From positions 1 to 13,812 of the forward strand of contig RZZF01000012.1 of assembly GCA_009929975.1 (NCBI GenBank): DNA of 13,812 nucleotides. Reading direction: 5' to 3'. This DNA is from Clostridia bacterium (GTDB lineage: Bacteria > Bacillota > Clostridia > Saccharofermentanales > UBA5734). This document shows positions 2,303-7,589 of the stretch, in pieces. Both the position numbers and the translations under genes were made by a program. Numbering within the stretch: the first letter of the stretch is position 1; each line of letters begins with the position of its first letter. A model generated the notes under the pieces. That model searched no databases. It had not been told where the DNA came from and was given only the letters and a program-made list of their open reading frames with translations.

Positions 2303-3955
2303 ATGTCAACAAAATACATTTTTGTGACCGGTGGTGTTGTATCAGGAATAGGCAAGGGTATCACAGCCGCATCACTCGGCTGCCTGCTGAAGGCTCGCGG
2401 GCTGACGGTGCGCAACCAAAAATTCGACCCCTATATCAATATTGATCCCGGTATGATGAGTCCGATTCAGCACGGCGAAGTCTTCATCACAGAGGATGGC
2501 GCGGAAACCGATCTGGATATCGGTCATTATGAGCGGTTCACCGATGTCAGTCTGGATATCGAGAGTGATATCACGTCCGGTATGGTCTACCGCAATGTGA
2601 TCAACCGGGAACGCTGCGGCGGCTATATGGGGACCACCGTCCAGGTTGTCCCCCATATCATCAATGAGATCAAGAGCCATGTTTTCCATGTCGCACGGCA
2701 TGACCGTCCCGATGTTGTGATCATCGAAATCGGCGGAACCGTCGGTGATATGGAAAGCCTGCCATTTCTTGAAGCCATCCGCCAGATCGCCTATCAGGTC
2801 GGGCATGAGAATGTGCTGTTCATGCATGTGACGCTGATCCCCTATCTGCGTATGGCAGGTGAAGTCAAAACCAAACCGACACAGCACAGTGTCCAGAAGC
2901 TGCTTTCGCTGGGGATACAGCCGGATGTGCTGATCTGCCGCAGTGAAGTGCCGCTGGATCAGTCTGTCCGCCAGAAGATCGCGCTGTATTGCAATGTTAA
3001 TCTGGACTGTGTCATTCCCAATGTGGATGTCGATACCGTCTATCGTCTGCCGCTGATGCTTGAAGAAGCCGGTCTGGCCGACGTTGTCTGCCGCAAGCTC
3101 GGCATCGCCCAGTTTGTCGAACCTGATCTGCGTCGCTGGCAGCAGCTGGTCAGCCGTTTCAAGGCGGTCAACCAGACCGTGAATATCGCACTGGTCGGCA
3201 AGTATGTCTCCCTCCACGACGCGTATCTCAGTGTCGTTGAAGCCCTGACCCATGCCGGGATCGATCTCGGGACCGACATTAATATAGACTGGGTCTCGGC
3301 AGAAGATATCGAGGATGACGGGCCGGAGCCGCATCTGGCCGGCAAGGACGCGATTCTGGTTCCCGGAGGATTCGGTCCGCGCGGTATGGCCGGGATGATG
3401 CAGGCGGCCGAGTATGCTCAGTCGAACATGATACCGTTTCTGGGGATCGGATTGGGCATGCAGATGGCCGTCGTCGCGTTTGCCCGTTCGTCGGCGGATC
3501 TGGCGGATGCCCACAGCACCGAAGCGGAAGTCACCTGCCGGCCGCTGTTTATTCTGCCTGAACTGCCGATTTCCGAACAAAACGGCGTGAGTGAAGAAGG
3601 AATCGGCCTGAAACCTGAAGAAAAACCGATGCGCCGTGGTGCCTGTGACAGTGTGCTCGCGCAGGATTCTTTGCTGCGGCAGATCTATCAGGCTGATCAG
3701 ATTTCGGAACGTCACCACCATCGCTGGGAGTTCAATCCGGCCTATCGTGAGGTGTTGGCTGAAAAAGGCCTGGTTTTCTCCGGCGTATCAGACGACCAGT
3801 CACTGGTCGACGCCGTTGAGTTAAGTGATCATCCGTTTTTTGTCGGTGTGATCTACCATCCGGAATTCCGTTCACGTCCGATCCGTCCGCATCCGCTGTT
3901 TCATGCCTATCTCAGAGCGGCGCTGCAACAGCAGAAATCAGGTCAGCAGAGCTGA
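2303..3955 (+). CDS. pyrG: CTP synthase with a degenerate glutaminase domain (nucleophile Cys replaced by Gly)
   Basis: CTP synthase aminates UTP to CTP using ATP and ammonia, normally from glutamine hydrolysed in its C-terminal class I amidotransferase domain. The 550-aa length is normal. The synthetase domain (about 1-270) is intact: GGVVSGIGKG with Lys18, KFDPYINIDPG with Lys40, Asp72 in DGAETDLDIGHYERF, Glu142 in EIGGTVGD, and KTKPTQHS at 189-196. The amidotransferase domain (about 293-545) keeps GGFG at 355-358, ERHHHRWEFN, and His519/Glu521 in HPEF. However, the nucleophile motif GICLGMQ reads GIGLGMQ, with Gly383 (codon GGA, 3449-3451) in place of the catalytic Cys. The conserved GGTMRLG loop is replaced by EKPMRRG near 439-445. 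It should therefore use only free ammonia. ATG 2303 is chosen over 2276 because AAAGGGGG lies just before it. guaB follows after 15 bases. Confidence 0.95.
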   Translation: MSTKYIFVTGGVVSGIGKGITAASLGCLLKARGLTVRNQKFDPYINIDPGMMSPIQHGEVFITEDGAETDLDIGHYERFTDVSLDIESDITSGMVYRNVINRERCGGYMGTTVQVVPHIINEIKSHVFHVARHDRPDVVIIEIGGTVGDMESLPFLEAIRQIAYQVGHENVLFMHVTLIPYLRMAGEVKTKPTQHSVQKLLSLGIQPDVLICRSEVPLDQSVRQKIALYCNVNLDCVIPNVDVDTVYRLPLMLEEAGLADVVCRKLGIAQFVEPDLRRWQQLVSRFKAVNQTVNIALVGKYVSLHDAYLSVVEALTHAGIDLGTDINIDWVSAEDIEDDGPEPHLAGKDAILVPGGFGPRGMAGMMQAAEYAQSNMIPFLGIGLGMQMAVVAFARSSADLADAHSTEAEVTCRPLFILPELPISEQNGVSEEGIGLKPEEKPMRRGACDSVLAQDSLLRQIYQADQISERHHHRWEFNPAYREVLAEKGLVFSGVSDDQSLVDAVELSDHPFFVGVIYHPEFRSRPIRPHPLFHAYLRAALQQQKSGQQS

Positions 3956-3970
3956 CAGGGAGGGTTGACC

Positions 3971-5488
3971 ATGGCTTATATTTTTCAGGAAGAGTCGCGT
4001 ACATTCAGTGAATATCTGCTCGTTCCCAATCTGACCGGAAAAGCCGATCTGCCGCAGAATGTCGATTTGTCGACGCCGATTGTCCGGTATCGCAAGGGAC
4101 ATGAGGAAAGCCGGCTCCGGATCAACCTGCCTGTGACTTCCGCGATCATGCAGGCTGTTTCCAATGACACGCTGGCCATCGCGCTGGCCCGCTCAGGCGG
4201 GTTGTCGTTCATTTTCAGTTCGCAGCCGGTCGCTTCACAGGTCGACATGGTCCGGCGGGTTAAAAAATACAAAGCCGGAATTGTGACCAGTGATTCAAAC
4301 CTGACACCGGACCGGACTCTGGCTGATGTCATACGCCTCAAAGAGAAAACCGGCCATTCAACCATCGCGATCACCGACGACGGTACAGCGAACGGCCGGC
4401 TGCTCGGGCTGGTCACCAGCCGCGATTACCGGATCAGCCGGACATCGCCTGAAACGCCGGTCCGTGATTTCATGACACCGTTTGACCAGTTGATCTATGC
4501 ACATGAAGGAATCAATCTGAGCGAAGCGAACGATATTATCTGGGATCATAAAATCAATCAGCTGCCGATCATTGATCAAGATGGCCGACTGGCCGGCATG
4601 GTATTCCGCAAGGACTATGATGAACATAAGGAAAACCCGACCGAGCTGCTTGACGCCCAGAAGCGTCTGATCGTCGGAGCGGGGATTAATACACACGACT
4701 ACATGGAGCGTGTCCCGGCGCTGGTTGAAGCTGGTGCGGATGTGCTCTGCATCGATTCATCGGACGGATTCAGCGTCTGGCAGTCAGAGACGCTGCAGTG
4801 GGTGCGCGGCCAATATGGCGATCAGGTGATGGTCGGGGCCGGCAATGTGATTGACGCTGAAGGTTTTCGCTATCTGGCGGAGGCCGGCGCTGATTTCATC
4901 AAAGTCGGCATCGGCGGGGGTTCCATCTGTATCACCCGTGAACAGAAAGGGATCGGCCGTGGCCAGGCGTCAGCGGTTCTCGCCGTCGCCCAGGCCCGTG
5001 ACCAGTATTTCGAGGAGACGGGCATCTACATCCCGATCTGTTCAGATGGCGGCATTGTCCACGATTACCACATGACACTCGCGCTGGCGATGGGCGCAGA
5101 CTTCATCATGCTCGGACGCTATTTTGCCCGCTTTGATGAGAGCCCGAGCCGGCGGCTGCTGGTCAATGGTACCTATGTGAAGGAATACTGGGGTGAGGGC
5201 TCAAACCGGGCCCGCAACTGGCAGCGCTATGATGATGGTGTGATCGATGATGACGATCGCAAAATGGCGTTTGAAGAAGGTGTCGATTCCTATGTTCCAT
5301 ATGCCGGAAAACTGAAAGATAATCTGGATTTGTCGATGGCCAAGATTCGTGCTACCATGTGTGCCTGTGGATCGACCGCTATTGAGCAATTCCAGCAGAA
5401 CGCGCGTCTGGTTGTTGTTTCATCAACCAGTATCGTTGAGGGCGGCGCTCATGATGTCATCCAGAAGGAAAGTGAACGGCGCAGCTGA
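3971..5488 (+). CDS. guaB: IMP dehydrogenase
   Basis: This enzyme oxidises IMP to XMP with NAD+, the committed step of GMP synthesis. The 505-aa protein has a (beta/alpha)8 catalytic domain interrupted by two CBS domains at about residues 100-220. Visible parts are [11 protein letters not shown] near the N-terminus, [17 protein letters not shown], the catalytic loop [20 protein letters not shown] with Cys320, [11 protein letters not shown], and the mobile flap with the Arg419-Tyr420 dyad. The overall form is the one common in Clostridia. ATG 3971 is chosen over the in-frame TTG 3965 because GGGAGG at 3958-3963 is well spaced for it. It lies 15 bases after pyrG, so the two nucleotide enzymes are probably cotranscribed. 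Confidence 0.95.
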
Positions 5489-5533: not shown

Positions 5534-6016
5534 ATGGCAGAAAAAATTTATGAAATGACATATGAAGGCATCAAGCGGATGCAGGATGAGCTTGAGCACA
5601 GAAAGACCGTCGTCGCGGCAGAAATCGCTGAGCGTCTCAAAGAGGCTCGCTCACTGGGCGATCTGTCTGAAAACTCGGAATATGATGACGCCAAGAATGA
5701 ACAGGCTGAAAATGAGATGCTGATCATGGAGATCGAGGCGACTTTGAAGAATGCCCGTGTGATCGACGAAGATGAAATTGACAAGAGTAAAGTCACGCTT
5801 GGCGCCAAAGTCCGCATCCGTGATGAAGAGACCCGTGAGGAAATCGACTATATTCTGGTCAGCAATAAGGAAGAAGATATTTTCAGTCATCGTATTTCCA
5901 GCGATTCACCGCTGGGTGCCGCGATTTCCGGAAAAAAACGGAATCAGGTTGTTGATGTGCACACTCCGATGGGTGTGCTGCGCTACAAGATCATGAAAAT
6001 ATCCCGCCCCGACTGA
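5534..6016 (+). CDS. greA: Transcription elongation factor GreA
   Basis: GreA rescues backtracked RNA polymerase by inserting its coiled coil into the secondary channel and stimulating transcript cleavage. The 160-aa length is typical. Residues 1-75 form the antiparallel coiled coil, whose tip carries the acidic catalytic motif [17 protein letters not shown] (about 42-58). The C-terminal FKBP-like domain starts near 80 and contains [13 protein letters not shown], matching the family SP(L/I)G-A(L/I)-GK signature. The ribosome site is GAGGAT at 5523-5528. It lies 45 bases after guaB with no terminator visible between them, and lysS follows, an order common in Bacillota. Confidence 0.96.
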
Positions 6017-6092: not shown

Positions 6093-7589
6093 ATGTCATC
6101 GGATCAACCAATACCCTCGATGGAGACTGATCTGCAGGAACAGGAGCAGATTCGCCGGCAGAAGCTGGCTGAACTGCAGAGAGCCGGCCGTGACCCGTTT
6201 GAACAGGTAACCTGGCCGGTGTCTCATCACAGCAGCGAGATCATTTCGCAGTTTGAGGCTCTGGAAGGGCAGACCGTTCAGATTGCCGGCCGCCTGATGA
6301 GTAAGCGGGGCATGGGCAAGGTCAGTTTTTGCGACCTCGCCGACCGTACGGGCCGGATACAACTGTTTACAAAAATCGACAAGCTCGGTGAATCCGCGTA
6401 TGCGGAATGGCAGAAACTCGACCTCGGTGACTTGGTCGGTATCGAAGGCGAGGTATTCAGGACTCAGCGAGGTGAGATCTCCGTCAAAACAGCCCGTTAT
6501 GAGCTGCTGGCCAAAGCGCTGCGTCCGCTGCCGGAGAAGTATCATGGATTGAAAGACAAGGATACGCGTTATCGGCAGCGATATCTCGACTTGATCGTTA
6601 ATCCGGATGTACGCGAGACCTTCATCCGGCGCAGCCGGATCATATCAGCCATACGCCAGGTCCTTGACCGTCGCGATTTTATCGAGGTGGAGACCCCGAT
6701 TCTCAACGCGATTCCCGGAGGTGCCGCGGCGCGCCCGTTCATCACGCATCATAACGCGCTGGATGTTGATCTTTATCTGCGCATCGCGCCGGAGTTGTAT
6801 CTCAAGCGTCTGATTGTCGGTGGGTTTGAACGTGTCTATGAAATCGGCCGCCAGTTCCGCAATGAAGGGCTGTCAATCAAGCATAACCCGGAATTCACAT
6901 TGTTGGAACTCTATCAGGCCTATACGGATTATCAGGGTATGATGACACTCACTGAAGACCTGCTATCGGCCGCGGCACTAGCGGTGGGTGAGAGCCTTGA
7001 GGTTGAGTACCAGGGGCAGGCCATCAACCTCAAGCCGCCCTTCCGGCGTCTGTCGATGAACCAAGCGATTCTCGAATATGCCGGTATTGATTTTTCGATG
7101 ATCAGCGACGCGCAGTCTGCCCGTCAGGCTGCCCTGGCCGCCGGCCTTGACGATCTTGAGCCGAAGCTGAGCCGTGATGAGATCATGAACGCCTGTTTTG
7201 AGGCTTTCTGTGAAGAGAAACTGATTCAGCCGACCTTCATCTATGACTACCCGCTCGAATTGTCACCACTGACCAAGAAAAAGCCCGGGCAGCCCCAGCT
7301 GACGGAACGGTTCGAACTGTTTATCGGCGGACGTGAGTTCGCCAATGCTTATTCCGAGTTGAATGATCCGATCGATCAGCGTGAACGATTTGCCATGCAG
7401 GCCGCGAAACGCGCCGCCGGTGATGAGGAAGCCAATCTGACGGATGAGGATTTCTGTCAGGCGCTTGAATACGGGATGCCGCCGACCGGAGGACTGGGTG
7501 TGGGAATCGACCGTGTTGTTATGCTGCTGACAGACAGTGCTTCGATCCGTGATGTACTGCTGTTTCCAACGATGAAGCCGCTTCAGTAG
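6093..7589 (+). CDS. lysS: Lysyl-tRNA synthetase, class II
   Basis: It charges tRNA-Lys with lysine using ATP. The 498-aa protein has the class II layout: an N-terminal OB-fold anticodon-binding domain (about 55-150, with [17 protein letters not shown]), then the catalytic domain. Motif 1 and its extension are [16 protein letters not shown] (IPGGA near 207), motif 2 is [14 protein letters not shown] (about 246-259), and motif 3 is [14 protein letters not shown] (about 465-478). The lysine pocket region [14 protein letters not shown] is present. ATG 6093 follows AAAGGAG at 6081-6087. No T-box leader is present. A terminator-like hairpin ends 16 bases before the start, so lysS probably depends on read-through from greA. 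Confidence 0.97.

Follow-up and report, generated by a model that had tools for sequence, protein, structure and literature searches.

Glutamine is regarded as the proper nitrogen donor of CTP synthase, and the use of ammonia as a side activity. What, then, would be the nitrogen source of a CTP synthase whose glutaminase nucleophile has become glycine? This question is raised by a pyrG gene in a stretch of 13,812 nucleotides from a Clostridia bacterium; the whole of that stretch is called the window here. The genes and residues of the window to which the argument refers are listed below.

2303..3955, + strand: pyrG, coding for a CTP synthase with a disarmed glutaminase domain (550 amino acids; a further in-frame ATG lies at 2276)
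2453..2455, + strand: Met51, opposite E. coli Thr51, which is among the GTP-activation residues in passages of PMC9138612; Leu in 37 of 42 aligned Gly-clade sequences
3449..3451, + strand: GGA, the codon of Gly383, opposite the glutaminase nucleophile Cys379 of E. coli in the alignment to 1s1m
3626..3628, + strand: Pro442, aligned opposite E. coli Thr438, part of the CTP-synthase-specific GTP-activation motif in passages of PMC9138612
3716..3718, + strand: His472, aligned opposite E. coli Arg468, for which passages of PMC9138612 report a purine contact of GTP
3857..3865, + strand: His519-Pro520-Glu521, with the two remaining triad residues; present in the window and lost in some relatives
3974..5488, + strand: guaB (IMP dehydrogenase), the next gene downstream of pyrG; the pair is conserved with Gly-type pyrG
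5534..6016, + strand: greA, a conserved neighbour
6093..7589, + strand: a lysS-like gene, named by eye, a conserved neighbour

The original prediction held that Gly stands at the nucleophile position of this enzyme while the other two triad residues and the whole synthetase domain remain, and this was borne out. Counted from the ATG at 2303, residue 383 is Gly (GGA, 3449-3451) within IPFLGIGLGMQMAVVA, and it was aligned opposite Cys379 of the E. coli CTP synthase (1s1m). His519 and Glu521 are both read in GVIYHPEFRSRP, leaving a Cys-His-Glu triad that is incomplete only at the Cys. In the synthetase part, the catalytic residues that were checked (E. coli K18, K40, D72, E140, K187 and K223) are retained. 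A degenerate pattern for GIGLGMQM gave one match in the window and none in 200 shuffles. Going beyond the prediction, it was found that the enzyme also differs from E. coli PyrG (1s1m) at residues of GTP activation, with Met51 for Thr51, Pro442 for Thr438 and His472 for Arg468, while Arg470 and Glu68 are retained; the clade to which it belongs likewise has Gly for Cys379 and changes at 51, 438 and 468. Pfam recognised both domains of CTP synthase in the protein, PF06418 (E 3.9e-122) and the class I GATase domain PF00117 (E 5.5e-28), and the cut-offs of two CTP synthase models were exceeded (NF003792, 752 bits; TIGR00337, 714 bits). No CPSase domain was found in it by Pfam, which places it outside the carbamoyl phosphate synthetase family; what it has in common with CPS1-type ammonia-only amidotransferases is a kept glutaminase domain with a replaced nucleophile. 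The product is a CTP synthase by descent, and it should not be filed as glutamine-hydrolysing, as the name of TIGR00337 would have it. For Gly-type pyrG genes this automatic label misleads.

Could the Gly be an error of sequencing or assembly? The contig comes from a fragmented bin and contains an odd sfsA/accA junction near 620, but the same residue occurs with differing codons in 20 of the 20 nearest genomes and in 36 named GTDB records, and the order pyrG-guaB is conserved. Such an error is already refuted by the relatives, and its probability is practically nil. The first search for relatives returned 31 loci, 22 with Gly (two of which are the window itself) and nine with Cys; all 20 of the nearest loci (L003-L022, from 20 other genomes) have Gly, and the Cys loci are more distant. 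It had been proposed that residue 383 be aligned with the PyrG of close relatives, and no Cys was found at that place in any of the 20. That a single sequencing error does not explain the residue was likewise confirmed, all four Gly codons being in use (GGC 14, GGA 13, GGT 10 and GGG 5 among 42 aligned Gly sequences).

The species genomes of GTDB were scanned with the single pattern GIGLGMQM, which misses other replacements and Gly beside other residues, and 46 stretches were obtained. By tblastn, 41 of them encode a CTP synthase and five do not. Identity and common residues assign 36 of the 41 to the window's kind, and five are apparently independent: L080 (Alphaproteobacteria), L088 (Holophagaceae), L110 (Cystobacterineae), L093 (Sedimentibacter) and L094 (Clostridia). 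A tree of 66 rows unites 41 Gly sequences in a single branch, which has a support of 100/100 and contains no Cys type. Cys types from the same order surround this branch, and the closest of them are L023, L024 and L034. L080, L088, L110 and L094 fall outside it on long branches (L093, a partial sequence, is not in the tree); the joining of L088 and L110 may be an artefact or one event. On these comparisons, Gly at the nucleophile position is evidently an inherited trait and not an error. The isolate codes of clade members presumably stand for digesters, soda-lake sediment and termite guts; no link to ammonia-rich habitats is claimed, because the clade is known mostly from such samples. A passage of PMC11306104 places Mageeibacillus indolicus in Saccharofermentanales.

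Both domains of the Gly-type enzyme are under purifying selection. In 13 close pairs of the Gly clade the glutaminase half showed a dN/dS of 0.033-0.134, and the synthetase half one of 0.003-0.025 in 12 of the pairs (dS was saturated in the 13th). In the Cys-type control the glutaminase half gave 0.035-0.153 in six of seven pairs, with dS saturated in the other. A pseudogene was ruled out by the low dN/dS. In Cys types, too, the glutaminase half changes faster than the synthetase half (dN ratio 1.0-3.6, seven pairs); the ratio in the Gly clade is about 2 to 30 by our own arithmetic on the 13 pairs, and therefore the constraint on the glutaminase half looks relaxed, not gone.

The residues that changed together with the nucleophile were examined in a table of 42 Gly-clade sequences, 20 Cys sequences and four independent Gly sequences. 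It should be noted that these groups were set by the residue at 379, and therefore the test of the clade is the tree and not that column. No variation is seen at K18, K40, D72, E140, K187 and K223 among the 42 Gly-clade and the 20 Cys sequences, bar one masked and one gapped cell; in one of the four independent cases residue 187 is Arg, and in one residue 223 is Arg. Nine columns (E. coli 51, 73, 116, 120, 379, 387, 414, 438 and 468) are near-fixed, that is at least 90% in each group, for differing residues in the Gly and Cys sequences. Four of the nine are among 18 triad and GTP-activation positions, a list that we assembled ourselves from review passages (PMC9138612) and the triad; the p-value of about 1e-4 (0.0013 without 379) is descriptive only, because the clade members are related. 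Arg468 has become His in 42 of 42 Gly-clade sequences, Thr438 has become Pro in 39 and Thr51 has become Leu in 37, and the motif GTMRLG is present in none of the 42 as against 13 of the 20 Cys sequences. The three nearest Cys types retain the ancestral residues at 51, 379, 438 and 468.

The rest of the triad has begun to vary in the Gly clade. His515 is His in 36 of 42 sequences, Asn in four and Glu in two, and Glu517 is Glu in 31 and Gln in 11, whereas all 20 Cys types have both residues; the losses, confined to sub-lineages, represent later decay. Gly352, Gln383, Glu403 and Arg470 (E. coli) of the glutaminase site are invariant in the clade, and therefore glutamine might still bind. Could glutaminase activity survive through a replacement nucleophile? 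The triad His and Glu of most members and the invariant Glu403, Gln383 and Arg470 would agree with this, but no Cys of the glutaminase domain is common to all clade members, the commonest (E. coli 408) being present in 32 of 42. Ser or Thr occupies a column in at least 40 of 42 only at 307 and 520, both of which are Ser in Cys types too, and His515 and Glu517 are gone in sub-lineages. For want of any Cys common to the whole clade this candidate was rejected, and its likelihood is close to negligible.

The Gly-type enzyme is very probably a naturally occurring CTP synthase that uses ammonia only, comparable in its way of working to vertebrate CPS1. The synthetase half would work normally, UTP being activated by ATP and its oxygen replaced by ammonia. 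The glutaminase half would be unable to hydrolyse glutamine, since Gly has replaced the Cys that forms the thioester and the GTP switch by which the glutaminase is activated has been altered. Ammonia would come from solution, most likely via the former GTP cleft, where the ammonia tunnel opens; plugging of this cleft would no longer be needed, and the glutaminase domain would be retained as structure. According to passages of PMC9138612 and PMC8325340, GTP activates the glutaminase of CTP synthase; it does not speed the use of ammonia, which in E. coli it inhibits, and the GTP cleft is proposed as the way in for external ammonia. An enzyme that lives on free ammonia needs neither Cys379 nor GTP control, and therefore their joint loss is what an ammonia-only enzyme predicts. 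The retention of Arg470 and Glu68 in the GTP site counts against this explanation. An AlphaFold model has a pLDDT below 50 at residues 47-60 and 62-69, the tunnel included. We infer the ammonia-only activity, the route of ammonia entry and the service of glutamine use by other copies where these are present.

Known systems offer partial parallels. In human CPS1, according to passages of PMC4655335, Ser294 stands in place of Cys, only ammonia is used, and the class I glutaminase domain is kept but inactive. Gly-type pyrG likewise keeps a class I glutaminase domain without a nucleophile; unlike CPS1, which is another enzyme of another pathway and needs N-acetylglutamate, it has Gly and a changed GTP site. 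Passages of PMC9138612 describe the E. coli mutant CtpS G352P, in which glutamine activity is undetectable and activity with NH4Cl is almost full. That mutant was made and has Cys379 in place, whereas the loss in the Gly type is natural and inherited. Ammonia and glutamine forms of one activity exist in some bacteria, as AsnA and AsnB and as two kinds of NadE; AsnA is unrelated to AsnB, and the ammonia-type NadE is without the extra domain. Gly-type pyrG differs from these pairs in that it keeps the whole glutaminase domain, disarmed. Among the matches listed in a search of the open-access literature, no report of a natural CTP synthase without its Cys was found. If the ammonia-only reading is true, the use of ammonia is able to carry the CTP supply of a cell, and the Gly type, as a naturally occurring enzyme whose GTP switch is altered, lends itself to the study of ammonia entry.

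The number of CTP synthases per genome bears directly on this reading. Of 188 genomes of the order that were searched, 44 contain the Gly pattern, all of them in the families f1 (12) and f3 (32). No CTP synthase other than the Gly enzyme was found in 30 of 38 f3 genomes, with one CTP_synth_N match each (29 by the pattern and G120 by reading GIGLGMQL; for G108 the location of the match was not listed and its identity with the Gly gene was assumed), and a completeness of 90% or more is reached by 14 of these 30. As for the remaining f3 genomes, G121 has two matches, G029, G057 and G104 have two CTP synthases, and none was found in G024, G040, G105 and G106. In a set overlapping this count, 30 of 41 named genomes with the Gly enzyme have one CTP synthase match. 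Many f1 genomes contain both a Gly-type and a Cys-type copy. Glutamine synthetase gave no match in 10 of the 17 Gly-only f3 genomes searched, and it is absent also in G029, which has both types of CTP synthase, and in G025 and G028.

The original prediction had left a choice between an ammonia-only enzyme and one that has lost amidotransfer while another copy supplies it. For the clade the former is strongly supported by the 30 f3 genomes in which no other CTP synthase was found; the latter fits the many f1 genomes with a Cys-type copy. The prediction also proposed a search for a second pyrG in the window's own genome. This bin, 86% complete, has one complete CTP synthase, which is of the Gly type. 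Two C-terminal pieces that resemble the Cys type lie at contig ends, and their nucleophile region is off the contig.

Coexistence with a Cys-type copy in many f1 genomes would also suit a Gly paralogue that is a regulator and not an enzyme, for example a CTP-sensing or filament partner of that copy. The 30 f3 genomes would then need another source of CTP, and the catalytic synthetase residues checked are invariant, which makes a purely regulatory role very unlikely. Alternatively, glutamine could still be the nitrogen source, split by a stand-alone glutaminase or by the Cys-type CTP synthase in a mixed tetramer. A Cys-type copy is at hand for this in many f1 genomes, and three of five genomes of genus g26 have, by motif, a glutaminase gene immediately upstream of Gly-type pyrG, one of them confirmed by Pfam (L201:8962-9894; PF04960, E 2.7e-99). 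However, no glutaminase neighbour was seen in the window, nor in those other clade loci whose upstream gene could be read, and 30 of 38 f3 genomes are without a Cys-type copy; we regard this route as improbable. Ammonia from a free glutaminase would arrive from solution, and therefore the Gly enzyme itself would still be ammonia-only.

In 27 of the 188 genomes of the order no match to CTP synthase was obtained. Family f4, with G025 and G028 as examples, accounts for eight such genomes among its 12, two of them being single contigs rated 97-99% complete. A distant protein like the C-terminal domain of CTP synthase, with the motif GTCQGAQ, is coded at L041 (G006:C28:5825-6529).

The surroundings of the gene are conserved as well. 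guaB comes next after Gly-type pyrG in nearly all loci with a readable next gene, and greA and the lysS-like gene then follow in the longer annotated stretches of both families. A gathering-threshold search with Rfam in nine stretches gave two tRNAs and one TPP riboswitch, and no RNA switch tied to the ammonia or glutamine sets. The riboswitch (RF00059) lies in the window at 1332-1441, upstream of a thiamine transporter gene (PF09515, 1514-2143). At 128-1254 of the window, an SfsA without its C-terminal part (PF03749 matched at 2-71 of 138) meets an AccA without its N-terminal part (PF03255 from 108 of 310) near 620; this junction is a deletion or a contig misjoin, and pyrG is untouched by it.

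Is CTP synthase the only amidotransferase affected? In relatives, the glutaminase domain of GMP synthetase (a short GuaA) has collapsed; compared with the two-subunit archaeal enzyme, this GuaA keeps a shrunken piece of the domain fused in front. The CarA of the pyr operon is disarmed in relatives, Cys having become Gly or Asp, and it is present in the window's own genome. PurF has Ser for its N-terminal catalytic Cys in four genomes of genus g13 (L301-L304). Glutamine-using copies near glnA are retained in some genomes. One stretch of G005 contains, confirmed by Pfam, a class II ribonucleotide reductase, BtuR, CarA (motif intact), MurT, a GATase_3 protein (GatD-like) and GlnA, and further an ANTAR-domain protein, DapF, an aminotransferase, PurA and GuaA; a GATase_2 protein, by eye a glutamate synthase, lies in its flank. 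A similar order was recognised by eye in G003 and G022, and in G020 a part of it whose last gene is a Cys-type pyrG. Glutamine synthetase is on one contig with intact CarA in five of nine f1 genomes ('intact' being judged by the His-Pro-Glu motif, with the Cys seen in alignment for six) and with Gly-type pyrG in none of 12, counts that are suggestive only because the bins are fragmented.

The parallel losses in GuaA, CarA and PurF suggest that whole lineages are off glutamine as the nitrogen donor for nucleotides. We lean, with some reserve, towards a lineage-wide switch from glutamine to free ammonia, in which CTP synthase, GMP synthetase, the pyr-operon CarA and, in one genus, PurF would have been disarmed. 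Some f1 members would hold an ammonia set in housekeeping operons and a glutamine set around glnA with the ANTAR-domain gene, a possible nitrogen-status switch; most of f3 would have dropped the glutamine set, part of them even glutamine synthetase, and a myxobacterium would have come independently to something similar.

That myxobacterium is the bin G092, which has a CTP synthase with Gly. Its CarA reads PLAGIGLGYQ and IQFQPSG and its GuaA reads PVLAIGGSAY, while its TrpG-like and PurF-like proteins retain Cys; to judge from these motifs the bin shows a similar state reached independently. The Holophagaceae bin has an intact GuaA and a CarA with its Cys retained and a motif ending in HPD, and the glutaminases of GuaA and CarA were both missing from the results for G075 and G076. 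The Alphaproteobacteria bin has intact GuaA and CarA, and also a Cys-type CTP synthase.

The 358-aa GlmS-like stretch of G008 was not counted as a disarmed GlmS, as it scores higher as a NagB-II deaminase. Lack of GlmS does not set Gly-only genomes apart, since G022, G057, G029, G025, G028 and G092 gave no full match over the cut-off and G000 gave pieces only. At L292 (G092:C6:38883-39956) a GlmS-like protein of 370 aa lacks the glutaminase half, matching TIGR01135 at positions 247-605 and below cut-off. There are also exceptions to the separation of the two sets: in G012 a short guaA is on the same contig as a Cys-type-like pyrG fragment, and at L262 (G006:C212) an intact guaA is followed directly, in tandem, by a short guaA with a collapsed glutaminase domain.
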